A stretch of DNA of 32,570 nt from a virus. Below the pieces are notes generated by a model, which saw nothing but the letters and a program-made list of their open reading frames with translations, ran no database searches and was not told the origin of the DNA. The DNA is taken from the IMG/VR virus record IMGVR_UViG_3300010885_044924, positions 1-32,570 of that record. One strand, given 5' to 3'. Positions 5,234 through 28,133 of this stretch are shown piece after piece (the stretch's first letter is position 1; every line of letters begins with the position of its first letter). Made by a program: the position numbers and the translations under genes.

Positions 5234-5237
5234 TAAT

Positions 5238-6515: not shown

Positions 6516-6517
6516 TT

Positions 6518-7528: not shown

Positions 7529-7532
7529 AATA

Positions 7533-9020: not shown

Positions 9021-10114
9021 TGAGTGATGGTTTTATAGTTAATTTACCGTACAAATTTGAATTATTTGACGGTACAATAACCCCATTTAGTCTACACGAA
9101 CCATCAAGTTATTTGGGTATTGGTATAATTGATTTACCCATAATTCAAAATAGTACATCAATAGTAGCTGACCCTCATTTAGGTATTGGTGTTGTTGATT
9201 CTCCTATCAATCCTTTAATACCTGCTAGAATAGCTGCTAATAAATTAGGTATTGGTATAGTAGATGCGCCTATTGTTGATACTAATATATGTGAAATAAC
9301 ACCACCGTATTTAGGTATTGGTATTGTTAATTTACCAACACCAAACAATAATATTGCATCATTAGCACCAGCCTATTTAGGTATTGGTATTGTTAATGCA
9401 CCAACAGCAAATAATAATATTGCATCGTTAGCACCAGCATATTTAGGTATAGGTGTTACTGATAAAAAAATAACAGGAAACAATGTATCATCATTGGGTC
9501 CTAGATTTTTAGGTATTGGTATTGCTGATAATAAATTGGTATATGATATCCATTGTGGTACTAATACATCTGCCAATAATTCTAAAAAATTAAGATTTGT
9601 ATGTGCTCAAAATACAATAGATATACAGGTACCTAAAGTTACTCCTAACAATTGGTTATTTAAAAATTTAAATGCCTTCACTATTGTGGAGAAACCTAAA
9701 AATGTGAAAAATAAAGATAATTGGATTGCTGATGATTTAAGAAAGGATAAAAATAATCCTAATAATCCTGATAAAGAAGCACCACGATTATTAACACATT
9801 TGATTTTTGACCCAATAGATAAACCTGCAGTTAGTACATGGTATCTAACATATACTTTAGAAATTGAAGTTGAAAGAACTGAAAAATTAGAATTTTCACA
9901 TATTGCGTCACCATCGACCACCAATATTTTTGAATATAATTCTACTATATCTTCTACTGTGTGGACTATTCATCATCAATTAGGATTTATTCCTAAAGTT
10001 GAAGTGTTTATTAATAATATTATCTATATTCCAAAATCAATCACTCATATTGATACTAATACTACTGTTATAAAATTTGATACTGCAAAAATGGGTATGG
10101 CTAGATTTTATTAA
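9020..10114 (+). CDS. Fibre protein: seven LGIGI repeats, collar-family C-block and fibre tip domain
   Basis: The 364-residue protein has three parts. Residues about 30-185 are seven 22-residue repeats with the core YLGIGIVDxPI. Residues about 190-285 match the C-terminal block of the collar-fibre family (NWLFKNLNAF, NNPNNPD, PRLLTHLIFDP), here without the family's N-terminal half. The last 70 residues (TVWTIHHQLGFIPKVEVFI and a final FDTAKMGMARFY) resemble a small beta-sandwich found at the ends of many phage fibre proteins. It lies last in the plus-strand operon, directly before the bidirectional terminator. The origin looks composite. Confidence 0.68.
   Translation: MSDGFIVNLPYKFELFDGTITPFSLHEPSSYLGIGIIDLPIIQNSTSIVADPHLGIGVVDSPINPLIPARIAANKLGIGIVDAPIVDTNICEITPPYLGIGIVNLPTPNNNIASLAPAYLGIGIVNAPTANNNIASLAPAYLGIGVTDKKITGNNVSSLGPRFLGIGIADNKLVYDIHCGTNTSANNSKKLRFVCAQNTIDIQVPKVTPNNWLFKNLNAFTIVEKPKNVKNKDNWIADDLRKDKNNPNNPDKEAPRLLTHLIFDPIDKPAVSTWYLTYTLEIEVERTEKLEFSHIASPSTTNIFEYNSTISSTVWTIHHQLGFIPKVEVFINNIIYIPKSITHIDTNTTVIKFDTAKMGMARFY
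9113..9574 (+). repeat. Seven tandem 66-bp repeats (22-residue LGIGI units)
   Basis: Copies of TTaGGTATtGGT begin at 9113, 9179, 9245, 9311, 9377, 9443 and 9509, a spacing of exactly 66 bases each time with no indels. Copies 4 to 6 are most alike at DNA level (the stretch encoding NNNIASLAPAYLGIG). The constant period suggests a structural repeat, such as a beta-stranded stalk, that has grown by in-frame duplication. Confidence 0.93.
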
Positions 10115-10123
10115 AGTATTGAC

Positions 10124-10160
10124 ATAATAAAAAGCCCCGCTATGCGGGGCTTTTTATTAT
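10124..10160. terminator. Bidirectional intrinsic terminator between convergent arrays
   Basis: Perfect inverted repeat: 17-base arms (10124-10140 and 10144-10160) around a TAT loop, with the GC-rich core AGCCCCGC / GCGGGGCT. A-rich and T-rich flanks give a T-run on both strands, so it can end both the plus-strand operon (stop at 10114) and the minus-strand array (stop at 10176). Confidence 0.92.
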
Positions 10161-10175
10161 TAACTGTTTTAATTA

Positions 10176-12251
10176 TTAGTACGGTTCTCGTCGAATAGCT
10201 CTAACATGACTAACGGTTTCTTTAACCTCTGTTACTGCAGAAGATGCATAATTACGACAATCTACTCTTAGTGCAGTGGAAATCTTACCATTGTCTGTAG
10301 ATGACCAATAAAAACCTCCTGAATATGCGGTAAAACTTCCAGAACCTCCAGTAAAAGTGGTAAACCATTCTAATTTATTTGGGCCGGTTATAAAGGTTTT
10401 CCGGTTAATACTCATTACCACTAATTCATCTGCTGCAGGTAAATACCAATCAGAATATCCATTTATGTCTAATTTTGAACAATACCATGCGGCTGAAAAT
10501 CCATCCAGTACATTTTGTGATGTAATTCTCGTATTTTCTGGACCATTAGTATATGATGGTGTGTTATTAGTCCTATTTCCTACTGAACCCGATTTATTAA
10601 TAATATATTGCATATTAAGTTCAGTTGATTTTGGTGATAGAATTAGTTTATATTTAACCCCACCATCGGTGATATCTCCGATGTAAAATCCACCAGCTAA
10701 TGCATCTCCAACCACCGCCTTTGCTATTGTGGTGGTAGTGGATGTAGCAACAGATGTAGAACTAGTTGTTGTACTAGTAGGCGATATACCTGCCGTAGCA
10801 TTAGTTGTGGTGGTACTAGTAGAAGATGTACCTGACGTAGCACTAGTTGTGGTGGTACTAGTAGAAGATGTACTTGATATGCTTGGGGTACTTGAGGTAC
10901 TTGAGGCAGACCCAGTAATAGTAGCATTACCTACAAATTCCATGATAGTCATTGATGAGGTGGATTTGTTAATAGTATCGGCAGATTGATTCACAAACCA
11001 TTCGCTACTTACCGCATCACCACTAACCTTTACAGTATACGTAACAATATCGGTAGACGATACGCTATCGATAAAAGATACTGAATATGGTAAGGAATCA
11101 AGATTAGTGCCATCAACAATACAAAAATTATTTAAAAGTATTATATTATTTTTATATAACGACCCCATTGCGGTACCCGTTTTAGTTCCATTAGATAATG
11201 ATAATGATACGATTATTAAAAATTTTGAATTTGCTGATTGTGGGGTTATACTAAGAGTTAATCCGGTAGCTACTGTCGTAGTCCCCTTACCATTCTTAGC
11301 ATCACTGTCAGTGATATTGTAAGATTTTAATGTTGGCGCAGTGGGAGCAGTAGGTGCATCTGGTGCTTTTATTAAATCATCTATTCTGGATGATATTGCA
11401 TTAGTTAAACCAGTAGAATTTTTTAATACATTCATTAATGATTCTGACGATGTTTTATCATCAGCATATTTTTTATTAATGACATCACTATTATCTACCA
11501 CTACATCAATACTGGCTTTAGTAATAGCTTTTACTGTATTCGTAAAGGTAACATCATTACCTTCCATAGTTATTGGTGATGCAATAACTAACGGGACATA
11601 TTCTGAAACTTCTGGTAACAAACTAGGGTCAGTATCATATCCAATACCGAAAGGACTATCATCAAATCCTGGTGAGTTTGGTGGTATGAAATTCTTTGCA
11701 AATTCTAAAACAAACCATTTTAAATATTCAATACTGACAACTTTATTTTCATCATTTAGTTTTGCTTTATCATAAAAAGCAGCATATGATGATATTTTTG
11801 GAATATACAACTTTCCAGATATTGTGCCACCGCTTAATGGTAATAAGTATTTGTTTAATTCGGTAATGAATGCCACAATTGCTGGATTAGTATCATCATA
11901 TAATGCTTCTGATAATTTTTTAATTAATCCTTCTATACCTCCAGCACCATATAAACTATCCAAATATTGACTATCGACAATAGGAACCCATTTATTAGTT
12001 TTATATAATGTTAAATTGGTGGAATAATTATTATACCATAATTGACCCTCTACGGGTTTAGATGGTCCTGGATTATTAATACCACCACTACATGAATTAT
12101 CTAACAATTTTATTAAATTTATCCACAGTTCGGCACCATAATTAATAGAACTTTTACCATATAATCTTAATATGGTATCATCATTAATAGAATTTTGTTC
12201 TATTGATATGGGTGTTTTTGTAGTATCTGTGAATGGAATTGTATATTTCAT
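10176..12251 (-). CDS. Array fibre 9: EGQLWY-module fibre with Lcl_C (DUF1566) tip
   Basis: This 691-residue protein is the last of nine paralogues. The N-terminal module is present: SINYGAELWINLIKLLDN followed by PVEGQLWYNN. An LSGGTISGKLYIP segment follows near residue 140. Residues about 327-437 form a beta-sandwich-like block also seen in array fibres 7 and 8 (SKFLIIVSLSLSNG ... FIDSVSS ... NQSAD ... TIMEF). Residues about 445-508 are a Ser/Thr linker. The last 180 residues look like an Lcl_C/DUF1566 domain (DINGYSDWYLPAADEL, YWSSTDNG, VRAIRREPY), a family with a C-type-lectin-like fold. A tip-located receptor-binding role is inferred. The gene ends just before the shared terminator. Confidence 0.72.
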   Translation of the reverse strand: MKYTIPFTDTTKTPISIEQNSINDDTILRLYGKSSINYGAELWINLIKLLDNSCSGGINNPGPSKPVEGQLWYNNYSTNLTLYKTNKWVPIVDSQYLDSLYGAGGIEGLIKKLSEALYDDTNPAIVAFITELNKYLLPLSGGTISGKLYIPKISSYAAFYDKAKLNDENKVVSIEYLKWFVLEFAKNFIPPNSPGFDDSPFGIGYDTDPSLLPEVSEYVPLVIASPITMEGNDVTFTNTVKAITKASIDVVVDNSDVINKKYADDKTSSESLMNVLKNSTGLTNAISSRIDDLIKAPDAPTAPTAPTLKSYNITDSDAKNGKGTTTVATGLTLSITPQSANSKFLIIVSLSLSNGTKTGTAMGSLYKNNIILLNNFCIVDGTNLDSLPYSVSFIDSVSSTDIVTYTVKVSGDAVSSEWFVNQSADTINKSTSSMTIMEFVGNATITGSASSTSSTPSISSTSSTSTTTTSATSGTSSTSTTTTNATAGISPTSTTTSSTSVATSTTTTIAKAVVGDALAGGFYIGDITDGGVKYKLILSPKSTELNMQYIINKSGSVGNRTNNTPSYTNGPENTRITSQNVLDGFSAAWYCSKLDINGYSDWYLPAADELVVMSINRKTFITGPNKLEWFTTFTGGSGSFTAYSGGFYWSSTDNGKISTALRVDCRNYASSAVTEVKETVSHVRAIRREPY
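10756..10881 (-). repeat. Three 42-bp tandem repeats in the Ser/Thr linker
   Basis: Three in-frame copies (10756-10797, 10798-10839, 10840-10881) encode a 14-residue Ser/Thr/Ala-rich unit containing STSTTTT. The second and third copies differ at few positions; the first is more diverged. The stretch lies between the conserved sandwich block and the Lcl_C tip. Confidence 0.88.
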
Positions 12252-12270
12252 ATGTGTTATCTATATTGTA

Positions 12271-15081
12271 TTATGGTTTTAATGTGGCAATTTTTAAATA
12301 TCCACATTGACCATCTTCATTAATCCCTACTGTGGCAGCAACCTGTGTTGCACTAGTTTTAGCAATACCACCATATCCTGGAGTACCTTTAGCAGAAGGA
12401 TACATAGTTTGTGTTACTGTGACAAAATCTGTATTTATATATGATTTACCTTCACGGCCTCCTTCTCCATAAGTATTTGAGTCCGCATTAACTGCAGTTA
12501 TTTTTCCACCTAAACCAATACCTTTACCATCAGTAGCATATCCACCGCCACCACCGCCACCGCCACCCCCATCTACATTAGCCCCAGGTGTACTACCATT
12601 TCCAGTATCGGAATAAGTATCAGTAATAGTTTTTGGAATACCATTAATTATTAATCCGGTAGGAATACCATTCACATCGGCACCGCCACCCCCACCGCCA
12701 CCGGCAGCTACTATTAATACAGTACCATCGGCTTTAACAATAGCAGAGGACCCACCACCATATCCACCTTCACCACTAAATCCATTTGGTCCAGAAGTAC
12801 CACCAACACCACCATTATTAAAACCACTACTGGTTTCTCTAATATCTAAAGCCATACCTCGTGGACCACTCGAATTATAACCATATACGGTAATCGCATG
12901 ACTACCTTTCGATAATGTAGTACATTTTGAAAACACATTTTTATATCCGGGTACATCTACAACTAGTACACTATCAAGTTTTATACTACCGTAATTATCT
13001 ATACTTGATGAAACAATATATGATGTGGTTCTTGGGAAGGTAACATTAAAAGTTTTATTATCGATTTTATTACCAAGACTAGAAGTCCAAAAATTATTTC
13101 TACTAAGGAATGATACCCAATTAGAATTAGTTTCTCCCGTACCAGTAAATACCCCAGAATCAGCTAATGATTTTTTATTAACTATCACTGGTAATATAGA
13201 ATCATTTGGATTTCTAAAAATACTTTTTTGAGTAGTCTTAAAATCTTTATTTGATGTTCCACCACCAACACCACCACATCCTACATATATTCTTAATATT
13301 TCATTTGGTGTTACTGTAATAGTAGCCGACATTTTAACCCCATGTCCACCGTTTCCACCGACTTTAGAACCACCATCATGACCACCAGCTCCACCACCAG
13401 CACCAACAATATCAACAGAAATTTTGGTAATACCATCTGGAACGGTATATTCGTAATATTCTGCCGTAGGATTAGGAATCTTATATTCTACTACTTTACT
13501 AACATATGCTACTGTTGTTGTAGTAGTTGGTTTTAAAGTGGTTGTAGTAGTTGGTTTTAAAGTGGTTGTAGTAGTTGGTTTTAAAGTGGTCGTAGAAGTT
13601 GGTTTACCAGTTGTGGTTGTTGATGTGTTACCAGGAAGTAAAGTAGTTGAACTAGTTATCTGCTGTGCTGTAGTTGTTGTAGTTGGTAAGGTAGTTGATG
13701 ATGTAACATCATTACTAGGAACAAAATCAGAAAACTCAGATGACACAAAATTTGTATCTTGATATTCTAAAATGGTCATATATGACATCCCACTTGTGGT
13801 GCCATCTGCAGATTGATTTGTATACCATTTACCAGTAGCTAATTCATTATAAATTCTAATATCATATGTTACAGGAGTTATGTCGGTAACAGCATCTATG
13901 AAAGTGGTACATGATGCAATCATGTCAGAATCTGTTCCTCTATCAATAGCACTAAATTTTTCAATCAATGCATTTCCATTTTTATATAATCCACATATCG
14001 AAGCACCCGGCGTAGTACCATTAGATAACAATAACGAAACATTAATGTAAAATTTAGAATTTACTGATAATGGTGTAATATTGATGCTTAATGGTGTGGT
14101 ATATAATGAAGTTGATGAAGTACCAGATTTTTCACATAAGGCATATATTGACATATATGACCCAACTTCGCCAATATTAGTATATGCTGTTGATTCACTA
14201 GATGAACTTTCTGTAGTATTGGCTGATGTTGCTATATTATCAATAGCTTTTTTAAATTCCGTAGTATCTTTTATTTTATCCCATAAGCTGCTTTCCGTTA
14301 CTAGACTATCAGCATATTCTTTATTGATTGCACAATTTGCATTTACGGTTGTTGGTACAGTTGCTTTTTTAAAATATACTTCTGATGATATATTTAAGTT
14401 TTCTCCTGTTATGGTGGTACTTTCTTCCGTTTTTATAGGTAAGAAATCACCAATGTTACCTGCATTTATAGTACCATCATCAAATCCTGTACCAAACCCA
14501 CCATCATCAAAACCAGCCGATAATGGTTTTTCATAATGCGTCATGAAATCATCAGTAAACCATTCTAAAAATCCAGCAGTAACAACCTTTTGGGTATAAT
14601 TTGGTAATGTTTTATAATTAGCATATTTCTCAGATGGTAAATATAAATTACCTGTTAATGTTCCACCAGTTAATGGTACAAATAATTTAGATAATTCATC
14701 TATTAATTTTTTTATATTATCACTAGGTGGTGATTTTTTTAAGGCATCTGTTATTTTAGATATTAAACCATATATATCAGAACCATATTGTTCTTCGTAT
14801 TTTTCTAAATCAAAAATCTCTGACCATCCAGTAGCTTTAAATATGTTTAAAACTTTTTCACTATTATTATACCATAACATACCCTCTACTGGGTTTAATA
14901 AAGTAGAACCATCGCTGGCATAATTTTCTAATAAATGTAGTAAATTTGTCCACAATCCTTCCCCATAGTTACTATGATTATAACCATAAAATATTAATGG
15001 TAAAGAATCATCAATACTATTAGGGAGGATAGTTAATGAGGTTTTAGTATCATTAGAATAATTAATTTTATACGACATCAT
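12271..15081 (-). CDS. Array fibre 8: polyglycine tip with inserted PA14-like domain
   Basis: At 936 residues this is the largest gene in the window. N-terminal module: NYGEGLWTNLLHLLENY, then PVEGMLWYNN (Q replaced by M). VPLTGGTLTGNLYLP is near residue 135 and the shared sandwich block is at about 340-445. A Thr-rich linker at about 457-525 includes three LKPTTTTT units. The tip is glycine-rich (for example VDIVGAGGGAGG, AAGGGGGGGADV), like polyglycine adhesin domains. It is split at about 650-750 by a block containing NWVSFLSRNNFW, SIDNYGSIKLD, VYGYNSSGPRGMALDI, resembling a PA14-like carbohydrate-binding sandwich. The start ATGATG lies inside the end of array fibre 7 (14-base overlap). 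Confidence 0.72.
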   Translation of the reverse strand: MMSYKINYSNDTKTSLTILPNSIDDSLPLIFYGYNHSNYGEGLWTNLLHLLENYASDGSTLLNPVEGMLWYNNSEKVLNIFKATGWSEIFDLEKYEEQYGSDIYGLISKITDALKKSPPSDNIKKLIDELSKLFVPLTGGTLTGNLYLPSEKYANYKTLPNYTQKVVTAGFLEWFTDDFMTHYEKPLSAGFDDGGFGTGFDDGTINAGNIGDFLPIKTEESTTITGENLNISSEVYFKKATVPTTVNANCAINKEYADSLVTESSLWDKIKDTTEFKKAIDNIATSANTTESSSSESTAYTNIGEVGSYMSIYALCEKSGTSSTSLYTTPLSINITPLSVNSKFYINVSLLLSNGTTPGASICGLYKNGNALIEKFSAIDRGTDSDMIASCTTFIDAVTDITPVTYDIRIYNELATGKWYTNQSADGTTSGMSYMTILEYQDTNFVSSEFSDFVPSNDVTSSTTLPTTTTTAQQITSSTTLLPGNTSTTTTGKPTSTTTLKPTTTTTLKPTTTTTLKPTTTTTVAYVSKVVEYKIPNPTAEYYEYTVPDGITKISVDIVGAGGGAGGHDGGSKVGGNGGHGVKMSATITVTPNEILRIYVGCGGVGGGTSNKDFKTTQKSIFRNPNDSILPVIVNKKSLADSGVFTGTGETNSNWVSFLSRNNFWTSSLGNKIDNKTFNVTFPRTTSYIVSSSIDNYGSIKLDSVLVVDVPGYKNVFSKCTTLSKGSHAITVYGYNSSGPRGMALDIRETSSGFNNGGVGGTSGPNGFSGEGGYGGGSSAIVKADGTVLIVAAGGGGGGGADVNGIPTGLIINGIPKTITDTYSDTGNGSTPGANVDGGGGGGGGGGYATDGKGIGLGGKITAVNADSNTYGEGGREGKSYINTDFVTVTQTMYPSAKGTPGYGGIAKTSATQVAATVGINEDGQCGYLKIATLKP
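13525..13596 (-). repeat. Three 24-bp repeats encoding LKPTTTTT
   Basis: Three tandem copies (13525-13548, 13549-13572, 13573-13596). The first two are identical and the third differs at two bases. They lie at the junction between the sandwich stalk and the polyglycine tip. A more degenerate Thr-rich flank extends to about 13710. Confidence 0.9.
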
Positions 15082-17533
15082 ATGGTTCTCTTCTTACTGC
15101 GCGAACATTATATACATTAGTTTCGGGATTTGATGTATGTGCATTATCAGATAACAAATGAACTTCCCATGCTGCTCCGTTACTACTTTCTGATGATGAC
15201 CAATGAATAGAACTATCACTACTTGCAAAACCATTATTAGTTGCAAAAGGTTTAGCTGCATGATTTTTATACATTACTTTTAATTCATCATGTGCTGGTA
15301 AATACCAATCGGAATATCCATTAACTTCTAATTTTGCACAATAATCTGCAGCGAAATGTATACCAGGTACTAATGTTAATTTCGCGGTATTCCCTGGGCC
15401 ATCGGTTAACGATGTAACACCCATAGTAGTATTACTTGCAGTTGAACTTCTCCATTTTTCCCGACCTTCCGAAGATTTGGGAGATACCACAATTCTATAT
15501 TTCACACTATTATCTATGATATCACCTAAATAAAAACCACCTTTATATTCTTCACCAATTTTAGGCATATATATTGTTGTAGTCGTAGTAGTTGGTGCTT
15601 TAGTAGTCGTAGTAGTTGGTGCTTTAGTAGTCGTAGTAGTTGGGGTTTTGGTAGTAGTGGTAGTTGGTTTTAATGTGGTTGACGTAGTTGTAGGCCCTGC
15701 GTTAGTAGTTGTAGTAGTTGGTGACCCAGTAGTAGTGGTAGTAGAACCAGCGACGGTAGTTGTAGTTGTTGACCCAATTGTAGTAGTGGTAGTAGTTGAA
15801 TCAATGCATTGAATGCCAATATGTTTAAAGGTATTTAAAATTGTTGGATATTCTGCAGGAGCATTAAAAATATTATTATTTACCGTAAAGGTACAAATAA
15901 TATTACCATTACTGGGTACTATTTTACCGGTAATACCAAATATTATTTCCGTATCGGTACTAGATTTTTTGGTGGTAATTACATCAGATACTGTATATGA
16001 ACCAATTGGGTCAATAGTAAAAATGTTACCCACATTAGAAACAAAATTGAAAGTATTATTGATAGTGCAGTTTATGCACGATAGTTTTATACTACCAGAG
16101 AATACGTCATCATTAGTAGCTAGTTCAGTTAAATCTGAAACTACTGTCCACACTAGTGATGGTTGAGATACTTGCTTGTATTCTAAGATGGTCATAGTAG
16201 ATGTAGCATAATTCTTTTTATTTGCTGATTGATTTACTAACCAATTATCGGCACCAGGTTTGGTACCATATACTTTAATAGAATATGTTGTTTCATTAGT
16301 ATTAGTAGTAGAATCCACAAAGGAAAAGAACGATGAAAAAGCATCATTATCGGTTTTTTCTACTACTGCAAATTTATCTACTAATGCAACATCATTTTTA
16401 TACAGTCCTGCTACAGCTTGTCCAACCTTAGAACCATTAGATAAAATTAATGATATGGTGATTAAAAATTTGGAATTTAAACTTTTTGGGGTAACTTTTT
16501 GTGATAATACCGTTTGTGGTGAAATATTATTTCCTGATAATGGATTAGAATTTACTACACATGATGATGATAATACAGCGGGTACCGCTGTCAATGTAAC
16601 CTGCGCATTTTCTGGTTTTGCAAGTTCTGCTGTTACATCATCTGTTATTAATTTTTTAAAATCCGCATTATTTTTTATTTTATCGATAATAGCAGAAGGT
16701 GTTAATTCATTATCATAATCCATCTTTCTAACTAAATCAGTATCTACCGTAGCCGATGGAACTTCAATACTATTGTCAAAATTGACGGTATTGTTAATAG
16801 TTAATTTATTTCCAGATATTGTTTTTGCATTATCTAAATTCAATGGAACATAGGTACCTACCGTATCATCTACCCTAGATTCATTTCCAAAAATATCAAA
16901 ATATCCCTCCTCCGGTTTATATGTTTTTGCAAAATTATCTAAATAACTTTTTAAATATCCTACTGAGAAGGCTTCATATAATTCGGGTGGATTATTATAA
17001 ACAACATATGGGTCATTAGATAAGTATAATTGTCCCGTTAATTGTGCGCCAGTATACGGAACATAATAAAGTTGTAAAACAGTTAATAAATCTGTACTAT
17101 TTTTTATTGAATCTACAATTTTACCAATAACACCATCAATACCATCAAAACCGAAAAGGTTTTCTAAATATTCCATATCAACAATAGATACCCAAATAAA
17201 TTCATCTTTAGTAGATATATTGGTATTATCTGGTGTAGCAACAGTTAATGCTAATGGAGATTTATTTACCTTTTTATAAACTTTTAAGACTTTGTTATAA
17301 CTATCATACCACAATTGACCTTCGGTAGGATTATCCGGACCAGTATAATTAGGGCTACCATTAGCAAAATTTTCTAATAAGTGTAGTAAATTATTCCACA
17401 ATCCTTCAGCATATTCTTTTCTACCTTGCCCATATAATACTAACGATGTACTATTATCAACTTCATCAAATGGGATATTAAAAGATGGTTTGTTTAAACC
17501 ATCTGTATAATTAATATAATATGTTTTTTTCAT
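15068..17533 (-). CDS. Array fibre 7: EGQLWY-module fibre with Lcl_C (DUF1566) tip
   Basis: The 821-residue protein has the N-terminal module YAEGLWNNLLHLLENFANG then NPTEGQLWYDS, and VPYTGAQLTGQLYLS near residue 160. The sandwich block at about 344-452 contains SKFLITISLILSNG and STMTILEYK. A further beta-rich block follows at about 455-575. A Thr-rich linker spans about 577-654 and an Lcl_C/DUF1566 tip about 655-815 (EVNGYSDWYLPAHDEL, IHWSSSES, VRAVRREPY). Array fibre 9 ends at the same REPY, but here three extra residues (DVV) are read through the overlap with the next gene. I see no Shine-Dalgarno before its ATG. The tip is diverged from that of fibre 9, so this is not a recent duplicate. 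Confidence 0.72.
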   Translation of the reverse strand: MKKTYYINYTDGLNKPSFNIPFDEVDNSTSLVLYGQGRKEYAEGLWNNLLHLLENFANGSPNYTGPDNPTEGQLWYDSYNKVLKVYKKVNKSPLALTVATPDNTNISTKDEFIWVSIVDMEYLENLFGFDGIDGVIGKIVDSIKNSTDLLTVLQLYYVPYTGAQLTGQLYLSNDPYVVYNNPPELYEAFSVGYLKSYLDNFAKTYKPEEGYFDIFGNESRVDDTVGTYVPLNLDNAKTISGNKLTINNTVNFDNSIEVPSATVDTDLVRKMDYDNELTPSAIIDKIKNNADFKKLITDDVTAELAKPENAQVTLTAVPAVLSSSCVVNSNPLSGNNISPQTVLSQKVTPKSLNSKFLITISLILSNGSKVGQAVAGLYKNDVALVDKFAVVEKTDNDAFSSFFSFVDSTTNTNETTYSIKVYGTKPGADNWLVNQSANKKNYATSTMTILEYKQVSQPSLVWTVVSDLTELATNDDVFSGSIKLSCINCTINNTFNFVSNVGNIFTIDPIGSYTVSDVITTKKSSTDTEIIFGITGKIVPSNGNIICTFTVNNNIFNAPAEYPTILNTFKHIGIQCIDSTTTTTTIGSTTTTTVAGSTTTTTGSPTTTTTNAGPTTTSTTLKPTTTTTKTPTTTTTKAPTTTTTKAPTTTTTTIYMPKIGEEYKGGFYLGDIIDNSVKYRIVVSPKSSEGREKWRSSTASNTTMGVTSLTDGPGNTAKLTLVPGIHFAADYCAKLEVNGYSDWYLPAHDELKVMYKNHAAKPFATNNGFASSDSSIHWSSSESSNGAAWEVHLLSDNAHTSNPETNVYNVRAVRREPYDVV
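15571..15802 (-). repeat. Thr-rich linker repeat with 24-bp TTTTTKAP units
   Basis: The 3' part of the linker (low plus-strand coordinates) holds near-identical 24-base units encoding TTTTTKAP, the same unit that builds the stalk of the plus-strand vWA fibre at 1924-2406. The upstream part is more degenerate (TTTTTVAGS, TTTTTGSP). Confidence 0.85.
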
Positions 17534-17606
17534 GAGGTGATATTAATAGAATCAATAATGTAACACCATTCCGATAATCCAAAATGCATATATGATATTT
17601 TCATAA

Positions 17607-19268
17607 CTATTTTGGTTTTCTTCTGATATAAAATGGCCATATTGTATTGTCCGCCGCAGTACCATTAGCAGGATTGAATTCTGTCGTACTTGCGGGGGGT
17701 CCCCATAGGAATATTTTATACCAATAATTGACGGAATCCATATCAACAACCCACCATCCTGTACCAAAAGACCATCCAGTAGGTAATACGGGATGAGACG
17801 CAATATACGTCGATAACATATTACTTTCTGATAATGTGGGAATTACTAAATTATAAGATAGTGAGTTTGTAGTTTTAATAGTATCTGCTTGGGCTAGTGC
17901 TTGAGCATACGTCATTCTTGAAAAATTCTGTGGATAATAGTAATAATCATAAGCTACATCTGACCCAAAATAGTAAGAACCTTCTACTGCTACAGGAACT
18001 GATGAAGTAGTCGTAGTGCTGGTTGGTACTACCGTTGTTGGTGCTATTGTAGTAGATGATGTAGTACCTGATGCCACAGCGGTGGTAGTTGACGTAGTTG
18101 GTGTTATGGTAGTAGTTGTATTTGGTGTAGCAGAAATAACATTAGTTGTATAAGACAATGAATCTGATGCTAAATTACCACCAAGACCAGTGATTTGTGA
18201 GCTAGAAATGCTAAATTTTGATACTAATTTATTAATTGTTGTTGTACCACTAAACGAAATAGTTATTACATCGTTAGAAGGATTACTATTAGCATACATA
18301 ACGGCATCAGATAATGTTGGTGACATTACCACGGTGGGTGATGCAATATAATTAAAACCTGATGGTAGTTTTGCTGTTAGTGTACCAGTAATTTTATTAT
18401 TAGAAATATCGAAGGTATCAGTCCATATAATTTTTGTTACTAACGCTTGCATATATTCTTTAATTTTTAAATCTACATAATCACGGGACGCTGCAAATTT
18501 ACCATTAACAATGTCTGGATTATATGTAGGTAATATAATGTTAGCTTGTGATAATTGCGCACCTGCTAACGAATTATCAACATTTGTAGAATCTATAGCT
18601 TTTTTTAAATAATAGCCACCATAACCAGCATCTAAGGTACTATCAAATGGTGGAATATCAAACCCTATTAATGTTGATAAATCTAATGTAGTAAGTTTGT
18701 TATTAATATAACTTTTTAAATATGCTACTGATACTGCTAATTGGTCATTTTGTAAAGGGTCATTATCAGCATTTGTATTATATGGGTAAATATTCAACGG
18801 ACCAGTTAATGTACCACCAGTGATGGGTAAATATGAACCACCCAATGCTGATAATAATGTTGCTGTTGCTGGATTGCTTGGATTCGCTAAAGCAGCCGTT
18901 AATCCATTAATAATACCATTAATAACGTTTGGGTTTGATAATGAGTCAACATCTAACAATATAGACCAATGATATGTTTTTGGTGATGTTGATGGTAAAA
19001 TTTCTTTATATACCGATAACACTTTATCAACATCATTATACCATAATTGACCCTCTATTGGATGATTTGGACCAGGCCCGGCACTACTGAAATTTTCTAA
19101 TATGTGTACTAGATTATTCCATAAGTCTTCACCATAATCAGAATTTCCTTTACCATGTAATACCAAATCAGTATGACATCCGTCAAGACTACCTGGACCA
19201 TCTTTCTTTAATTCTGCAATGGTAAAATTTGGTTTATTGGTATCAGAAAATTTAATAGTATATGTCAT
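17607..19268 (-). CDS. Array fibre 6: EGQLWY-module fibre with lectin-like tip
   Basis: The 553-residue protein has the module SDYGEDLWNNLVHILENFS and HPIEGQLWYND near residues 50-85, then LPITGGTLTGPLNIYP and AVSVAYLKSYI units. A Ser/Thr linker spans about 379-423. The 130-residue tip contains YAQALAQADTI, YNLVIPTLSESNML and GTGWWVVD and ends PFYIRRKPK. The layout (helix with small residues, then LVIPTLSE, then a Trp-rich strand) suggests a C-type-lectin-like fold, and the RRKP end recalls the RREP ends of the Lcl_C tips; this is an eye-level inference. A late promoter octamer lies about 30 bases upstream. Unlike most array genes it does not overlap its neighbours. Confidence 0.68.
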   Translation of the reverse strand: MTYTIKFSDTNKPNFTIAELKKDGPGSLDGCHTDLVLHGKGNSDYGEDLWNNLVHILENFSSAGPGPNHPIEGQLWYNDVDKVLSVYKEILPSTSPKTYHWSILLDVDSLSNPNVINGIINGLTAALANPSNPATATLLSALGGSYLPITGGTLTGPLNIYPYNTNADNDPLQNDQLAVSVAYLKSYINNKLTTLDLSTLIGFDIPPFDSTLDAGYGGYYLKKAIDSTNVDNSLAGAQLSQANIILPTYNPDIVNGKFAASRDYVDLKIKEYMQALVTKIIWTDTFDISNNKITGTLTAKLPSGFNYIASPTVVMSPTLSDAVMYANSNPSNDVITISFSGTTTINKLVSKFSISSSQITGLGGNLASDSLSYTTNVISATPNTTTTITPTTSTTTAVASGTTSSTTIAPTTVVPTSTTTTSSVPVAVEGSYYFGSDVAYDYYYYPQNFSRMTYAQALAQADTIKTTNSLSYNLVIPTLSESNMLSTYIASHPVLPTGWSFGTGWWVVDMDSVNYWYKIFLWGPPASTTEFNPANGTAADNTIWPFYIRRKPK

Positions 19269-19297
19269 CGTTTTTCTATATTTCTAAAGGAAATCTA

Positions 19298-19305
19298 TAT
19301 TTATC
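19298..19305 (-). promoter_or_regulatory. Candidate T4-type late promoter (GATAAATA) before array fibre 6
   Basis: The minus strand reads GATAAATA 30 bases upstream of the fibre 6 start, overlapping the stop of fibre 5. It fits the NATAAATA late consensus of T4-like phages. Such octamers also occur by chance in DNA this AT-rich. Confidence 0.4.
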
Positions 19306-20029
19306 ATTGGCAGAACCCTAATACACAAAAATCTATTTCTGTAGTAGTGGTAAGAGATTTATCTAACACTATGGTAAAATAATTTAACCGTTTATCAGTA
19401 ACATAATAATAATATTTGTGGGCTGATGCTGTACTTTCTGTTGATGATGAGGACAATATTACTGTATAGGTATTATTTTGCATAACTTTAGGTAAGGCTA
19501 TAACAATTTTACCATCTATCATATCACTGCTTTTAGTAACCCCATTAATAGTAATAAATTTATTAAATGCTGTAACATTATATTGATATTTTTCATTAAT
19601 ACCACTAAATGATGTTGGTGCATGATTATTAACATAATCTACCGTTGCCGCATGGTTATCATCAGTAATTTGACCAGATATTTCTAATGTATTGTGTAAT
19701 GTCCCACCAGATTTTGTCAACAATCCATCTACCGAAATTTCATCATGGGATACTACTACCCATATTGGAGTATCATAATTTTTTCCAGTATTAATTTTCA
19801 TCACATTATTTTTACTATCGTACCATAATTGCCCTTCCATCGCATTTTCTGGTGCAGTAGCATTAGAAAAGTTTTCTAATTTTCGTAAAATATTTGTCCA
19901 AAATGATGGTCCAAAATTAGAAACATTTTTTCCAAATAATGTTAAACAGGTATTAAAATTATATTCACCATCCATTAAAAATAATGATGGTTTTGATATA
20001 TTGGTAAAGTCTACTTTAGTATAACTCAT
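19304..20029 (-). CDS. Array fibre 5: short EGQLWY-module fibre
   Basis: This 241-residue minimal member starts MSYTKVDFTNISKPSLFLM, with SNFGPSFWTNILRKLENFS and NAMEGQLWYDS. A single GGTLHNTLEISG segment and a HAATVDYVNNH unit follow. The C-terminal 90 residues (NTYTVILSSSSTES ... FTIVLDKS ... FCVLGFCQ) resemble the gp53-like tip seen at the ends of many phage side fibres. There is no Thr linker. Its ATG overlaps the stop of fibre 4 (ATGA), giving translational coupling. Confidence 0.7.
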   Translation of the reverse strand: MSYTKVDFTNISKPSLFLMDGEYNFNTCLTLFGKNVSNFGPSFWTNILRKLENFSNATAPENAMEGQLWYDSKNNVMKINTGKNYDTPIWVVVSHDEISVDGLLTKSGGTLHNTLEISGQITDDNHAATVDYVNNHAPTSFSGINEKYQYNVTAFNKFITINGVTKSSDMIDGKIVIALPKVMQNNTYTVILSSSSTESTASAHKYYYYVTDKRLNYFTIVLDKSLTTTTEIDFCVLGFCQ

Positions 20030-20709
20030 GATGAGAATCCCATAACAACAAAGGCTAATGAATCATATTCACTATCAACAACCGTTTTAAAGCCATTAAC
20101 CGTCTTAGCATATGAATTATAATTCAATGCTGTGCTATCACTTCCGGTACTATTTAATGATAATAAGATAACATAATTAGTATTGCTCATAGACATAGGA
20201 AATGATACCGATGATGTTAATGCACCAGCTTCTGGATATATTAAACCATGCATAATAGTGTATCCAGTATCATATTTAATAAATGAAATACTTCTATTCA
20301 ATTCTGATGGGAAAATATATTTTTTAGTATCTACATAACTTCTGGTAGCTGCTAATTTATAATTAGTGGTGGATGTAGTTTCAGGTAATTTTAAAGTGCC
20401 TGTCATAGTATCACTAGATGATACATATAAAGATACATTAGGTATAGCAGGATTAAATTCTTTCCATATAGTACCATTATAGAATTTTAATACTTTATTC
20501 TTATTATCGTACCATATTTGACCCTTAGTGGGTTTATATGGTGCATATGGTCCTGCAAAATTTTCAACCATATGCGCTAAATCAGTAAAAAATAATTTCC
20601 CTACCTCTGTATTATTAAAAACAAATAATGATAAAGAGGTATCTTCATTTACTACACCACTCGTAAGAATTAATTGTCTACCATCAGCATGTTTTAAAAT
20701 ATATTTCAT
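20026..20709 (-). CDS. Array fibre 4: short EGQLWY-module fibre
   Basis: I chose the ATG at 20709 (MKYILKHADGRQ) because it forms an ATGA overlap with the stop of fibre 3; an in-frame ATG further upstream would add eight residues lying inside fibre 3. The product has 227 residues. Module: VGKLFFTDLAHMVENFAG and KPTKGQIWYDN, a variant of EGQLWY. One YKLAATRSYVDTKK unit follows, then a gp53-like end (NTNYVILLSLNSTG ... LAFVVMGFSS). It is a minimal fibre with a short stalk. Confidence 0.7.
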   Translation of the reverse strand: MKYILKHADGRQLILTSGVVNEDTSLSLFVFNNTEVGKLFFTDLAHMVENFAGPYAPYKPTKGQIWYDNKNKVLKFYNGTIWKEFNPAIPNVSLYVSSSDTMTGTLKLPETTSTTNYKLAATRSYVDTKKYIFPSELNRSISFIKYDTGYTIMHGLIYPEAGALTSSVSFPMSMSNTNYVILLSLNSTGSDSTALNYNSYAKTVNGFKTVVDSEYDSLAFVVMGFSS

Positions 20710-21362
20710 TTTTTCCACCCTAAAAGTAACCAAGCATTCCCATCTACGGTAAATGATGATGTTGTTTTATTTGTTATAGAATATACCTTTGTAGAGTTGG
20801 TATTATTTGTGGTTACTACTACATAATTAGTATCTTTCATATCAAATGGTATAGTAACATTACCACTATTAGAACCATTAATAATTACATATTTGTTAGG
20901 ATATATTTGCCAATTACAATAATCGTTACTACCGGATACTATTCCACCATGAAAATTATCTACATATTTTTTAGTAACTGCATCATCACTATTTTTATTG
21001 TCACCATCATATATGGTAGCACCGGAAACATCATCGACGAGTAGTAATGATGATACTACATTAGAACTATATACATTTAAATATTTTTTAGTATTGGTAT
21101 TATCCGCAGCAACTACTTGATTCCATGATGAAGCATTATTTTCTGGTGCGATATTTAATGTTTTAGTATCAGAATTGTACCATAATTGACCTTCTAATGA
21201 AGGATATGGCATTTTATAATTACAATAATTTTCTGTTAAATGTACGATATTTTGCCAAAATGGATAATTAAAACTATAATCCTCTTGGTAAATATTATTC
21301 ATATCGAATAATTCTGTAACATCATAAGCAGATTTAGAGGTATCTGAAAGTGTAATTTCCAT
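20706..21362 (-). CDS. Array fibre 3: short EGQLWY-module fibre
   Basis: The start is the ATG at 21362 (MEITLSDTSKSAYDVTELF), which overlaps the stop of fibre 2 by one base (TAATG) and has a GGTGGAAA site upstream. A longer reading would run 20 residues into fibre 2 and lacks family similarity. The product has 218 residues. Module: SFNYPFWQNIVHLTENYC and PSLEGQLWYNS; here the usual LxLxGxG segment before it is lost. A VTKKYVDNF unit follows, then a gp53-like end (TNYVVVTTNNTNS ... SFTVDGNAWLLLGWKK). Confidence 0.7.
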   Translation of the reverse strand: MEITLSDTSKSAYDVTELFDMNNIYQEDYSFNYPFWQNIVHLTENYCNYKMPYPSLEGQLWYNSDTKTLNIAPENNASSWNQVVAADNTNTKKYLNVYSSNVVSSLLLVDDVSGATIYDGDNKNSDDAVTKKYVDNFHGGIVSGSNDYCNWQIYPNKYVIINGSNSGNVTIPFDMKDTNYVVVTTNNTNSTKVYSITNKTTSSFTVDGNAWLLLGWKK

Positions 21363-23344
21363 TATTTCCACCGTCCAATTGCTGTGAAGTTGCAGGCAAC
21401 AAAATTTCTCCAGAATATACATGACATTGAATGTGGGCCTAATGCGGATATTCTAAATCCATCAATTTCTTTTTCGAATACATTAAATGTAACTGGGTGT
21501 ATTGCTTCTAATTTACCCCCTGGATTAGCCTTATCCATGTCAGCCCAATGTTTATCCCACTGTGAAGTATTTGCAAAATTATAATTTTCGGTAACTGGTT
21601 GATTATATTTGTTAGGAACATAAGTTGTCTTTAAATCAGCCTCTTTATTTAAAATTTCAGCACCTCTAAATTTATAAAGTCCAACATATTTTGCATTAAA
21701 ATCCGACCATAATCCACTTCTTCTTATTGTATCACATGATTTGTACGTGGTTGGTTGTATCGCTGCTTTTCCAGTAGGGGCTTGTGGACTCATGGTAACG
21801 GTGGGAATTTCTTCAGTGACCGTAACAGCATAATAATTATTAGTAAATTTAATACCATCAGGGAATGTAATTTTTGACAATGATGATGCCCAATATCCAT
21901 TGTCTTTATATGAAACACCAAAATTTCTATAAAAACCATATACAATTAATGTACCATCAGGAAATTTTGTATATGATATTAATTCTCTATCTTTATTATT
22001 TAATTTTTCGGCATCTGTAAAAGTTTTATTTGGTGGTGAAATAATATCTGTCGTTACTGTAGTAGATGTTGATGTCGATGTCGATGTAGAAGTTGAGGTG
22101 GATGTAGTAGAGGGTAACCCAGCTATTTTATTATCCACGTACTCTTTAGTAGCATATGTAGTGTTTGTTGTAGACGGTGCGGATGTAGGTATTGACGATA
22201 TTGCATCTGCTAACATTTCACTAACATAACTTTTAGTAGCATAATCAGGAGTTGTTGTATCGGCTGATGTTACGGTAGTAGACTCAGATAAACCTAATAG
22301 TTGGGCATCAACATATGCTCTAGTAGCAGCTCTAGCTTTATTAACATCAGTGTATCCCGTTTCATCTGCAGTTAAATATAAATTACCAGATAATGTCCCA
22401 CCCGCTAATGGTAAATAACTTGCAGTGCTAGATGTACTACTAGATGTACTACTGGTAGAACTGGTATTAGTTGAAGTTACCGTGCTTTTTGCAGTTGACA
22501 ATACAGCTCTAACATATCCTTTTGTTGCTGCGAAATTATCATCACCATCAACTACTGCTGTAGTTTGTGTAGGTAATATTAAACTGTTATACATTGTCCG
22601 AGATTCTGCTGGGCTATTAGCAGCTCGCCTAATATATAAATGATTACTTCCCAGCGGTGAACCAGTGGTATCATAATCCGATAATGCTAATGCTACACTA
22701 TCCGCAGAAACACTACTAGTGGTATTAGTGGAACTACTTGAACTACTCGCCGGTACTGCTGCTAACGCAGTAGTAATTTTTTCAGTAACAACCGTATCTA
22801 CTTTAACATTTACATATCGTACTGATGCTGCATAATTTCCGGGAATACTAACATTAGTATCTAATCGTACTTTACCATCAACTGTGGTGTACCATGAATC
22901 ATTATTCAATAATACCAAATTACCGGTCAATTGTGATGATACTTCTGGTGTCAAATATCCAACTAAATCGCTTTTTGTCAAATATTGAACAGCCGCTGCA
23001 CCCGTACCGGCATTATTACTAAAATCATAATTAGAAACAATATTCTTCCAACCATGGTTAGATTCGGTATCATCTTCCCCCACATATATTAATAATGATT
23101 TTTTACCTGCATTGTACCATAATTGCCCAATGGTTGGATGTGCTGGAGCATTAGCGGTTGATGAAAAATTCTCCATAATATGAAGCATATTTTCCCATAA
23201 TCCTGCACCATAATCTTTATGACCATAACCATATAATGTTAATGATGTTTTATTATCATTTACTGTATTCTCACCAACAGATATATTACTTTTCCCTGTT
23301 AAGGTACTATCAGTATATTTTAATGTATAATCTTTTAATGCCAT
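21362..23344 (-). CDS. Array fibre 2: long-stalk EGQLWY-module fibre
   Basis: The 660-residue protein has the module KDYGAGLWENMLHIMENFS and HPTIGQLWYNA. The stalk has at least four AAT-x-x-YV units (FAATKGYVRAV, RAATRAYVDAQ, YATKSYVSEM, YATKEYVDNK) and LPLAGGTLSGNLYLT, a pattern common in trimeric phage fibres. Two Ser/Thr stretches interrupt it near residues 285-300 and 410-430. The 220-residue tip ends GFRISALGPHS ... CNFTAIGRWK. A strong AGGAG site lies in the last codons of fibre 1. Confidence 0.7.
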   Translation of the reverse strand: MALKDYTLKYTDSTLTGKSNISVGENTVNDNKTSLTLYGYGHKDYGAGLWENMLHIMENFSSTANAPAHPTIGQLWYNAGKKSLLIYVGEDDTESNHGWKNIVSNYDFSNNAGTGAAAVQYLTKSDLVGYLTPEVSSQLTGNLVLLNNDSWYTTVDGKVRLDTNVSIPGNYAASVRYVNVKVDTVVTEKITTALAAVPASSSSSSTNTTSSVSADSVALALSDYDTTGSPLGSNHLYIRRAANSPAESRTMYNSLILPTQTTAVVDGDDNFAATKGYVRAVLSTAKSTVTSTNTSSTSSTSSSTSSTASYLPLAGGTLSGNLYLTADETGYTDVNKARAATRAYVDAQLLGLSESTTVTSADTTTPDYATKSYVSEMLADAISSIPTSAPSTTNTTYATKEYVDNKIAGLPSTTSTSTSTSTSTSTSTTVTTDIISPPNKTFTDAEKLNNKDRELISYTKFPDGTLIVYGFYRNFGVSYKDNGYWASSLSKITFPDGIKFTNNYYAVTVTEEIPTVTMSPQAPTGKAAIQPTTYKSCDTIRRSGLWSDFNAKYVGLYKFRGAEILNKEADLKTTYVPNKYNQPVTENYNFANTSQWDKHWADMDKANPGGKLEAIHPVTFNVFEKEIDGFRISALGPHSMSCIFWRNFVACNFTAIGRWK

Positions 23345-23348
23345 TTAT

Positions 23349-24695
23349 TTAAACTCCTACCGTATAAACCATAATGCCCCAATCTGTAGGGAATGTTGTC
23401 ATACCACCAGTATTATGATTTAATACACATTTAATAGTTTGTTTATCAGATTCTAATTCTACAAATTGTAATGAATACTCAAATATTATACCCGTTGGGT
23501 TTATTAAAGTTAATGAACAATGTAATAATGCAGTATATGCCTTCGGTAACAATATTCTGATTAATTTATTATTATCGTCATTGTTAACCATCCAATTTTT
23601 ACCAGTAGAAAATACTGCAGTAGCTGAATAATTTTGCAATGTCCCACTATCAGAATTAATTTGTAAATTCATCCATTGTGTTAACACAGAATTCATGAAA
23701 GTGGGTAATTTAAAATACCCTATTCTTGTATCTGTATTATAATCTTTACCGTTTGCCGTAAATACTGATGCTAAATTAGAATTATTACTTTTTATTTTAT
23801 CTTCAACAAATTCTCTGGATGCTGCATTTAATTTAGCATCCCCAGCCGTAATAGCCACACTAGTATCATATCCAGAATATCTAGGCAATACTAATTGCTC
23901 AGTCATCGCATTCGACCCATCTACTAATACTACTTTTGTTTTATTATATACATTATCACCTGTTGGAATTTTTCCATCTACATAATCTTTGGCAGCCTGT
24001 TTAGCTGCTGACGCATATTCAATTACATATCTTCTAGTTGCAGCATTATTGAAATTGCTTGTAGAATCCGCAGCAACTAAGGTCAATGAACTTGTACTTA
24101 CAAATTCTGATGGTAATATTAATGATTTCAACATGGTTCTATTCTCTGCAGTTGCAGTAGAACTTCTATCAATATAGGGTAAATCTGTAGCAGCATTATT
24201 CAATATTGCTTTATCAACATATTTTCTAGTAGCAGCAAAATTTTGATTAGAACTACCAGTAACACTATTTAAAGTATCATTAGTATATTCTGAAGGTAAT
24301 TTTAATGGTTGGGTCAATACAGGAGTAGTTTTATTAACATAATTTTCTAATTCTAATTTTAAATCGTCATTAGTTAATAATCCAGTTGTAGTACCATCAA
24401 TCAATATTTTTTTCCAAAAGTATGAATTATTTTCTCTAATTCGTAATTGTAATGTATTATTTGATGGTTTATACCATAATTGACCTTCCGTGGGATTAGT
24501 AGGCTCATTATTGGAACAAAAATGCTCCATTATTTTTATCATATTGCCCCATAAATCAGAACCATATGTCAATGAACCAATTCCATGCAATCTTAATGAT
24601 GTCGAAGTATTAGTTTCAGTAGCCGATATTGAAATATCATTTTTATTGGCTACTGAACTATCAGTAAATTTAATATTAAGTATAGGGTCTGTCAT
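23349..24695 (-). CDS. Array fibre 1: EGQLWY-module fibre, first of nine
   Basis: The 448-residue protein has the N-terminal module LRLHGIGSLTYGSDLWGNM (residues 35-52) and NPTEGQLWYKP (EGQLWY at 70-75). It then has several AAT-x-x-YV units (NFAATRKYVDKA, NNAATRRYVIEY, NAASREFVEDK) separated by LPSEY/LPSEF strands. There is no Thr linker. The C-terminal 120 residues are beta-rich and end WGIMVYTVGV; I cannot assign a fold. A late promoter octamer lies 34 bases upstream. It is probably the promoter-proximal gene of the array transcript. Confidence 0.68.
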   Translation of the reverse strand: MTDPILNIKFTDSSVANKNDISISATETNTSTSLRLHGIGSLTYGSDLWGNMIKIMEHFCSNNEPTNPTEGQLWYKPSNNTLQLRIRENNSYFWKKILIDGTTTGLLTNDDLKLELENYVNKTTPVLTQPLKLPSEYTNDTLNSVTGSSNQNFAATRKYVDKAILNNAATDLPYIDRSSTATAENRTMLKSLILPSEFVSTSSLTLVAADSTSNFNNAATRRYVIEYASAAKQAAKDYVDGKIPTGDNVYNKTKVVLVDGSNAMTEQLVLPRYSGYDTSVAITAGDAKLNAASREFVEDKIKSNNSNLASVFTANGKDYNTDTRIGYFKLPTFMNSVLTQWMNLQINSDSGTLQNYSATAVFSTGKNWMVNNDDNNKLIRILLPKAYTALLHCSLTLINPTGIIFEYSLQFVELESDKQTIKCVLNHNTGGMTTFPTDWGIMVYTVGV

Positions 24696-24728: not shown

Positions 24729-24736
24729 TATTTATG
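24729..24736 (-). promoter_or_regulatory. Candidate late promoter (CATAAATA) at head of the fibre array
   Basis: The minus strand reads CATAAATA 34 bases before the fibre 1 start, overlapping the end of the preceding gene. Seven-base inverted arms ACAAAGT / ACTTTGT (24700-24706 and 24721-24727) lie between octamer and start codon and could form a leader hairpin. Confidence 0.5.
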
Positions 24737-26234
24737 TAAAATTATTAACCCCTACAATATCTATAGTGAAATCATCAATATCATGTCTAGCACTATTCAC
24801 CGTGCTTTGCTGATATGCTGTTAAATGTAAAGAAACACCATTTAATTTAGTCGGTGGCACACCATATAATGAACCAGTATTCTGGTCTAATTTCAACCAT
24901 ACTAAACCTAACTTATCATTATCAACAATATAAAATTTATCATAATTATACTTTAATAATGATAATGTATTATTTTTACCACTATTCCAATATACATTAG
25001 TAATATCATTTTTTATCGTATTATCAACTATAATATGCATAATATCATAATTTACAACACCATCACATTCACCTTTAATATATAATTTATTATCCGATGA
25101 TGTTTTAGGCGTTAATCCTTTTAACGAATATCCATCATATGTTAACCATGATGGTAGATTTTCAATAGTCATCTTAACAGCTCTATTAGGTACACTATAA
25201 ATGTTAGTCAATACATAAGATACTAGTTGATTTGCAGCATATTTTAAATCCGGTGGCGGTTTAACCACCATATTATTAACACTATATGATAGATTAGGTG
25301 ATTCTGTTGTAGGATAAGTAGGAACCGTAATAGGAATCGGAACCGATGCTTTATAATTCAATAATGAAAATATATAAACCATATCAGATGATGCATTTTT
25401 ATATACATCCTCAGTAGATAATAAATGAGCATCTAATATTTTTATAGTACTATTATCAATAATATTATCCTTACCTACCGCATTATCAATAACCATTGCA
25501 TTTTTACCTGACCCGGAAACACATATTGCCCCACCACCGCCATAACCAGATTTATTATATAAAAATACAATATCCCCAACATTTATTAAATTCTTCCAAT
25601 CACCCTTCGGGTGATTGCCATCATATTTAAGTATCCAATCACCATTCCCAACCATATTAGCATTCGAATTAATGCTCATTAATGGTAAGGATGTTTTATT
25701 AATAGTCGCAATAGTATCCATCAATGACCAATAATTATCTATACTCCAAGTCTTACCAACAAATGATTTAGCAACATCTACGATATTCTTAGAATTATTA
25801 ATATAATCTGGTTGTGTTGCTATGGATGCACTATACTCAGTTAAATTTAAACTATTCAAATATATAGATAACCAATCTAAAGAATTTGCATATGCGGTAC
25901 TAAATGTATTAGATACACCAACCGTCAAGACACTCAAATTATTCTTAACATCACTAGTGTGAAATTTTAAATTTGTTAAATATCCATAGGTAGAATTATA
26001 ATATGCACCATTATTATACGTATATAAAATACTACTAGATTTAATATTATTAGGAAAGGGTGATGGTGTTATCTTAGTACCATTATATGTAAAATATCCA
26101 TATGTATCAGATTCTTGATTACATACATTAATTATTAAATACTTCTCAGCACTCTTACTAAAATCAAATATATCTGTTATCTTTATATCTTTAACAGCAT
26201 TAAGTACCATGCCATAATTCTTTACATTTATCAT
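24732..26234 (-). CDS. Virion-associated repeat protein with He_PIG-like domains and degenerate peptidase-like domain
   Basis: The 500-residue protein begins MINVKNYGMVLNAVKDI. Residues about 1-140 resemble the sensory or adhesin-type repeats of large secreted bacterial proteins. Residues about 150-280 resemble a papain-like (NlpC/CHAP-type) domain: SFVGKTWSIDNYWSLMDTIA, then GDIVFLYNKSGYGGGGAICV and AMVIDNAVG. Where I would expect Cys (DNCW) and His (GGGHI) there are Tyr and Ala, so it is probably catalytically inactive. The last 190 residues hold two putative Ig-like (He_PIG) units (NLPSWLTYDGYSLKGLTP; VWLKLDQNTGSLYGVPP). A GGTGAAAG site lies 3 bases or so before the ATG. The location between terL and the fibre array suggests a virion protein. 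Confidence 0.5.
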   Translation of the reverse strand: MINVKNYGMVLNAVKDIKITDIFDFSKSAEKYLIINVCNQESDTYGYFTYNGTKITPSPFPNNIKSSSILYTYNNGAYYNSTYGYLTNLKFHTSDVKNNLSVLTVGVSNTFSTAYANSLDWLSIYLNSLNLTEYSASIATQPDYINNSKNIVDVAKSFVGKTWSIDNYWSLMDTIATINKTSLPLMSINSNANMVGNGDWILKYDGNHPKGDWKNLINVGDIVFLYNKSGYGGGGAICVSGSGKNAMVIDNAVGKDNIIDNSTIKILDAHLLSTEDVYKNASSDMVYIFSLLNYKASVPIPITVPTYPTTESPNLSYSVNNMVVKPPPDLKYAANQLVSYVLTNIYSVPNRAVKMTIENLPSWLTYDGYSLKGLTPKTSSDNKLYIKGECDGVVNYDIMHIIVDNTIKNDITNVYWNSGKNNTLSLLKYNYDKFYIVDNDKLGLVWLKLDQNTGSLYGVPPTKLNGVSLHLTAYQQSTVNSARHDIDDFTIDIVGVNNFT

Positions 26235-28027: not shown

Positions 28028-28074
28028 TGGCATTTTGTTGAACATATTTTTTTGAAAGTTGTACTTTTACCGAT

Positions 28075-28102
28075 TTGACAAAACAAAAAATAATGGTATA
28101 AT
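28075..28102 (+). promoter_or_regulatory. Consensus sigma-70 promoter for the HNH gene
   Basis: Exact TTGACA (28075-28080), a 16-base spacer and exact TATAAT (28097-28102) preceded by TGG, an extended -10. The predicted start of transcription is near 28108, about 25 bases before the ATG at 28134. An in-frame ATG at 28059 lies upstream of this promoter and can be discarded as the start. Confidence 0.88.
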
Positions 28103-28133
28103 ATTGTTTTTACTTTTTATGAGATTTAAGATT

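Follow-up and report, generated by a model that had tools for sequence, protein, structure and literature searches.

The window analysed here is an IMG/VR virus record of 32,570 bases, taken in full. Positions 10176–24695 are filled by nine consecutive minus-strand open reading frames (ORFs), all intact and tightly packed, with several overlapping by a few bases. The first, f1 (23349–24695), encodes an N-terminal module, a stalk and an unclassified tip, and f2 (21362–23344) encodes the module, stalk repeats, a Ser/Thr linker and a putative gp53-like tip. These are followed by three short fibres with gp53-like tips, f3 (20706–21371), f4 (20026–20733, with an alternative ATG at 20709) and f5 (19304–20029), which align with one another over their full length. 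The start of f3 most likely lies at 21371 or 21362, rather than at the mechanical ORF start at 21422, and comparison with its relative G001 (a 74-kb contig with an 87% identical terminase) agrees. f6 (17607–19268) combines the module with a body and a fast-evolving, unclassified tip. The three longest products, f7 (15068–17533), f8 (12271–15081) and f9 (10176–12251), have ~450 residues of body in common, which f6 matches over about 250. They continue with a Thr-rich linker and an Lcl_C tip in f7, a Thr-rich linker and a glycine-rich tip with an unclassified insert in f8, and a Ser/Thr linker and an Lcl_C-like tip in f9.

A strong hairpin at 10124–10160, a GC stem flanked on either side by T runs, lies between the array and a convergent plus-strand cluster and is likely to be the terminator shared by both. 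Promoter-like sites were no more frequent than in shuffled sequence. Most or all of the fibre products would come from one operon-like gene run. In the plus-strand cluster, 3989–9020 holds four consecutive genes of unknown family, three starting with MYIxx and one with MYTxx; they are 82–91% identical in G001, gave no PHROG match and, for the three tested, nothing in Pfam. Directly upstream of the array, a minus-strand gene (24732–26234) encodes a 500-aa protein that is 71% identical in G001, shows a weak He_PIG match and, by eye, a stretch that resembles NlpC/P60 or CHAP. Contig L211 has, at this position, a gene whose start and size are similar, and its terminase large subunit gene is apparently split in two by an intervening ORF (L211:3198–6794). 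A protein with three HNH endonuclease units, encoded at 28059–29621 (plus strand), runs opposite to its terminase-side neighbours and is 91% identical in G001. Two adjacent tail-tube-like paralogues lie at 30577–31785 and 31796–32455 (minus strand); their G001 counterparts match phrog_4542.

The original prediction described the array as nine tandem paralogues with one N-terminal module, and the alignments bear this out. The module spans ~90 residues. Aligned locally over their first 100 residues, the nine proteins showed 27–54% identity across the 36 pairs (z 9.1–36.4 against shuffles), and hmmsearch found the module in 9/9 proteins at E 4e-13 or better. Among the motifs said to occur in all nine, GQLWY contributes the sole invariant residues of the nine-sequence alignment (G, W and Y); LxLxGxG is absent from f3 and altered in f4. 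Pfam holds no family for the module. In PHROGs it matches phrog_15511 and phrog_14394 (virion structural protein), and the array agrees with this family both in its N-terminal module with a GQLWY core and in its tandem module genes with differing C-terminal tips. The AlphaFold2 model of the reference copy (f5 residues 1–96; 19742–20029, minus strand) is confident, with a pLDDT of 93. Foldseek comparison of this fold with the PDB returned a best E of 2.2 and nothing usable, and VIA matched residues 44–96 at only Z 2.0–2.2 to the N-terminal part of Mtd and to collagen XV/XVIII trimerisation domains, which is too weak to use; a T4 gp10-type fold was not among the structures listed. A PDB sequence search with the module, the stalk and the f6 tip yielded no convincing match, and profile comparison of the module against the single T4 sequences gp8–gp12, a weak test, yielded none.

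The tips differ along the array. Gp53-like ends had been proposed for f2–f5. The predicted structure of f5 shows a folded module, a stalk and a tip of the AP22 gp53/R2 pyocin fibre type, which resembles the AP22 gp53 fibre (4mtm; Z 9.8, 2.5 Å over 90 residues) and 6cl6 (Z 9.3). The likeness to R-type pyocin fibres and Acinetobacter phage AP22 gp53 lies in the tip fold; those proteins differ in having another N terminus and a single fibre type. f3 and f4 join f5 through full-length alignment, f4 also through a sub-threshold Pfam match for a gp53-like end, and f2 is assigned to this class by eye and by conservation with its counterpart h2. The f7 tip is Lcl_C (PF07603; 45.3 bits against a Pfam cut-off of 34.9), as predicted; that of f9 falls below this cut-off at 27.0 bits but is homologous to the f7 tip (38% identity). 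We considered DGR or A-specific variation in these similar tips and rejected it: the mismatches are spread over all bases, as in ordinary paralogy. For f8, the polyglycine assignment stood, with Gly_rich_2 above the Pfam cut-off, and the PA14-like insert found no match to PF07691. The lectin-like end proposed for f6 likewise lacked a match to PF00059 (C-type lectin), and searches returned no phage or PDB relative of this tip. Missing Pfam matches do not exclude lectin-like (f6) or PA14-like (f8) folds, and the f6 tip, the f8 insert and the f1 tip, on which the original prediction was silent, are left here without a class.

Comparison with relatives separated the array into positions that keep their tip and positions that do not. 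Contig L109, 99.96% identical over 15.7 kb, carries f1–f7 in order as far as it reaches, and G001 matches the window in all nine genes and in their order. The nine window–G001 orthologue pairs have dN/dS values of 0.12–0.29, comparable to those of tail-tube genes (0.22–0.25) and terminase (0.11), and are under purifying selection, so that the degradation in relatives that the original prediction had allowed for is not seen. Over the first 60 residues the fibres are 73–98% identical between window and G001; f6 has 83% identity there and only 33–50% in its tip. In two lineages further removed, G008 (terminase 60% identical; near copies L110 and L126) and L211, the array comprises six genes and keeps the long-long-short-short-short-long layout. 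Modules are conserved at all six shared positions (z 8.8–55), as are the tips at positions 2–5 (z 5.8–37). By contrast, the tips at positions 1 and 6 are unrelated (z −1.2 to 1.4) in the window–G008, window–L211 and G008–L211 comparisons alike: the f1 tip is unrelated to h1 and k1, and the f6 tip to h6 and k6. In these three lineages, on which the slot rule is based, four of the six common slots, those of f2, f3, f4 and f5, thus keep their tip, and at least two, slots 1 (f1) and 6 (f6), swap it. f7–f9 are confined to the window lineage; because the G008 and L211 arrays end at gene six, these three genes are either additional in it or have been lost from both other lineages. A tree could not date their origin, since the module alignment is too short.

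A second locus in G001 adds seven modules, bringing its total to 16, and here module and tip have been recombined. Gene s1 shares 56% identity with s2 in the module and 53% with s6 and s7 in the tip; s6 and s7 in turn share 71% identity in their tips and 42% in their N-terminal parts. A Thr-rich linker marks the module-side joint of the exchanged tips. Linker length differs between the window and G001 in f2, f7, f8 and f9, where short tandem repeats sit. Exact DNA matches between linkers reach at most 15 bases among array members and at most 23 to the plus-strand gene, with no long homology, and the idea that linker DNA homology provides the recombination site is suggestive only. Also in G001, three module proteins (L104:14033–15073, L105:7251–8519 and L105:8525–11104) have one common tip, which in one of them shows a TerD match under the Pfam cut-off. 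Together with the slot comparison, the mismatch of module and tip supports the predicted combination of a shared docking module with exchangeable tips. The further suggestion of a reservoir for tip exchange proved too loose, given the four locked slots. That the array is a silent reservoir or a set of decaying duplicates is highly improbable: tip exchange does happen, which speaks for it, but all nine genes are intact and under purifying selection, with their order conserved in G001 and, for f1–f7, in L109.

The module extends far beyond this lineage. An IMG/VR search gave at least 530 confirmed relatives, and more than 500 viral contigs carry the module, most often as three tandem genes; a run of three was the commonest state among sampled loci (54/81 and 43/64 loci). 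Isolated jumbo phages have one to six module genes (per whole record, one in RaK2, one in 121Q, five in PA5oct, six in XacN1 and six in RAS14), and named carriers also include K64-1, PBECO4, CBB, GAP32, Atu_ph07, cyanophages and many Vibrio phages. Among the other carriers, the C-terminal end is a tail collar domain or, going by protein names, a Gp10-C, collagen or gp53-like domain. The module itself is thus already known, being widespread and annotated as tail fibre or virion structural protein, and 'an undescribed system' was too strong a term; we found no paper describing it as a family.

Two sets of arrays are among the closest known systems. The three-gene arrays of marine T4-like phages (phrog_15511/phrog_14394; first member with a tail collar tip) share the module, the tandem order and a tip that differs per position, as well as the order of giant protein, phrog_11259 gene and array. 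They differ in gene number, three against nine, and in tips that are positionally stable except at position 2. Xanthomonas phage XacN1 (ORF232–237; L005:11505–20561) and Stenotrophomonas phage RAS14 each have six tandem module proteins, largely one-to-one orthologous between both phages; theirs is a separate expansion in the module tree, with other tips and not beside the terminase. XacN1 was reported to lack tail-fibre homologues, and its authors saw no tail fibres by electron microscopy (PMC5852040). Six module genes in a phage without visible fibres count against a rack of fibres, and it may be that their products are short or fold back. For Atu_ph07, T4-like fibre genes were reported absent, although short fibres were observed (PMC6102473). 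As both phages carry the module, the family may account for their missing fibres.

Gene order points to the tail baseplate. A ~200-codon phrog_11259 gene directly precedes a module gene in five marine contigs, RaK2, 121Q, Vibrio 2.275, Atu_ph07 and PA5oct, and in several such loci a gene for a giant virion protein (phrog_10938) precedes both. phrog_11259 was found in 18/19 records tested, the record without a match being a 35-kb fragment. Against the baseplate reading, it lies far from the module array in XacN1 and RAS14. Profile comparison of phrog_11259 with T4 revealed no homology. One copy per record is the rule; the window, G001 and G008 are the exceptions, with three or four paralogues, whether partial or complete. 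In the window these lie on the plus strand, at 8–859, at 856–3165, at 3176–3976 and at 9020–10114, the last made up of LGIGI repeats and, after them, the C-terminal portion of phrog_11259. The product of 856–3165 has ~160 residues of Thr-rich TTTTTKAP repeats between its phrog_11259-type part and a VWA tip, the same N-module/Thr-linker/tip plan as in the array but with a different N-module. In G001, the second module cluster comes after a gp25-type wedge gene and a hub/lysozyme gene. This arrangement supports, without proving, a probable baseplate location of the module proteins, the part of the proposed docking on the same baseplate site that the gene order favours. Virion evidence comes from relatives. 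All five module proteins of PA5oct, gp316–gp318 and gp358–gp359, are flagged ESI-MS/MS in the record annotation, and CBB_231 was detected in the virion with 12 peptides and 53% coverage (PMC5259590). PA5oct resembles the present system in having module proteins in two clusters and differs in its five copies and other tips. Its co-present paralogues lend the predicted display of several fibres per particle support from a relative.

A peripheral position would also suit proteins that do not bind receptors: pins of the baseplate or decorations of the tail comparable to T4 gp10/gp11, or whiskers on the sheath. T4 gp10, gp11 and gp12 are baseplate trimers encoded by consecutive genes, for which a common ancestral fold has been proposed (PMC3004832), although they have no detectable sequence relation to the module; PA5oct gp358 is annotated as a T4-like gp10 tail pin, and the module carriers CBB (PMC5259590) and Atu_ph07 (PMC6102473) bear unexplained whiskers. 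However, slots 1 and 6 have exchanged their entire tips and the f6 tip shows the fastest evolution, as expected of receptor-facing parts, and the f5 tip has the fold of known fibre tips. We regard such a structural role as unlikely. A similarly low likelihood attaches to the modules competing for one type of site, so that each particle would carry one fibre type or a random mix. The presence of a single module type on all nine proteins would permit this, but slot-wise orthology and a distinct tip constraint at each position fit distinct sites better, as do the positionally conserved tips of the marine three-gene set, in which positions 1 and 3 are similar in 406/406 pairs.

The original prediction also likened the array to branched multi-receptor complexes. 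Nine is the number of RaK2 long-fibre proteins (PMC10253068), and CBA120/Ackermannviridae TSP1–4 and RaK2 gp526–534 resemble the array in that several receptor-binding proteins of one phage have common N-terminal parts. Those complexes differ in their enzymatic tips and in branching through other, T4 gp10-like N-terminal domains (PMC10253068), for which reason a branched architecture is not our default reading. In RaK2, gp526–534 are separate from its single module protein, and phages with one module gene (RaK2, 121Q and Atu_ph07) show that a module protein does not depend on contact with a different one. It is therefore improbable that the modules bind one another or a carrier fibre.

Instead, with a probability of roughly 60%, we favour a large T4-like (jumbo-type) phage whose tail baseplate carries several different trimeric fibres, each mounted through the common module. 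T4 provides a precedent in its neighbouring gp10, gp11 and gp12 with their common fold (PMC3004832). Each protein would comprise the module, a fibre stalk, a Ser/Thr-rich linker in the long ones and a receptor-facing tip. The array would form a rack with position-specific slots, in which slots 2–5 are fixed and bear gp53/R-pyocin knob tips, slots 1 and 6 take exchangeable tips and f7–f9 are additional long fibres of this lineage. The data establish homology, intactness, purifying selection, the slot pattern of kept and replaced tips and, in a relative, tip swapping at the linker; trimerisation, baseplate docking and receptor binding in this phage are what we infer, and the products would probably be displayed together on one particle, giving it several receptor specificities. 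More tentatively, array order might correspond to distinct baseplate sites, with up to 16 fibres per phage (nine plus the seven at the second locus of the relative), locked slots alongside slots open to exchange at Thr-rich linkers, and the co-expanded phrog_11259 proteins as matching adaptors for subsets of fibres.

The array enlarges a fibre set that is already widespread in giant and marine phages. It singles out a confidently predicted docking module, for which a PDB match was not found, common to the host-recognition proteins of many jumbo and marine phages, and its slot pattern makes it testable which baseplate positions bear variable specificity.
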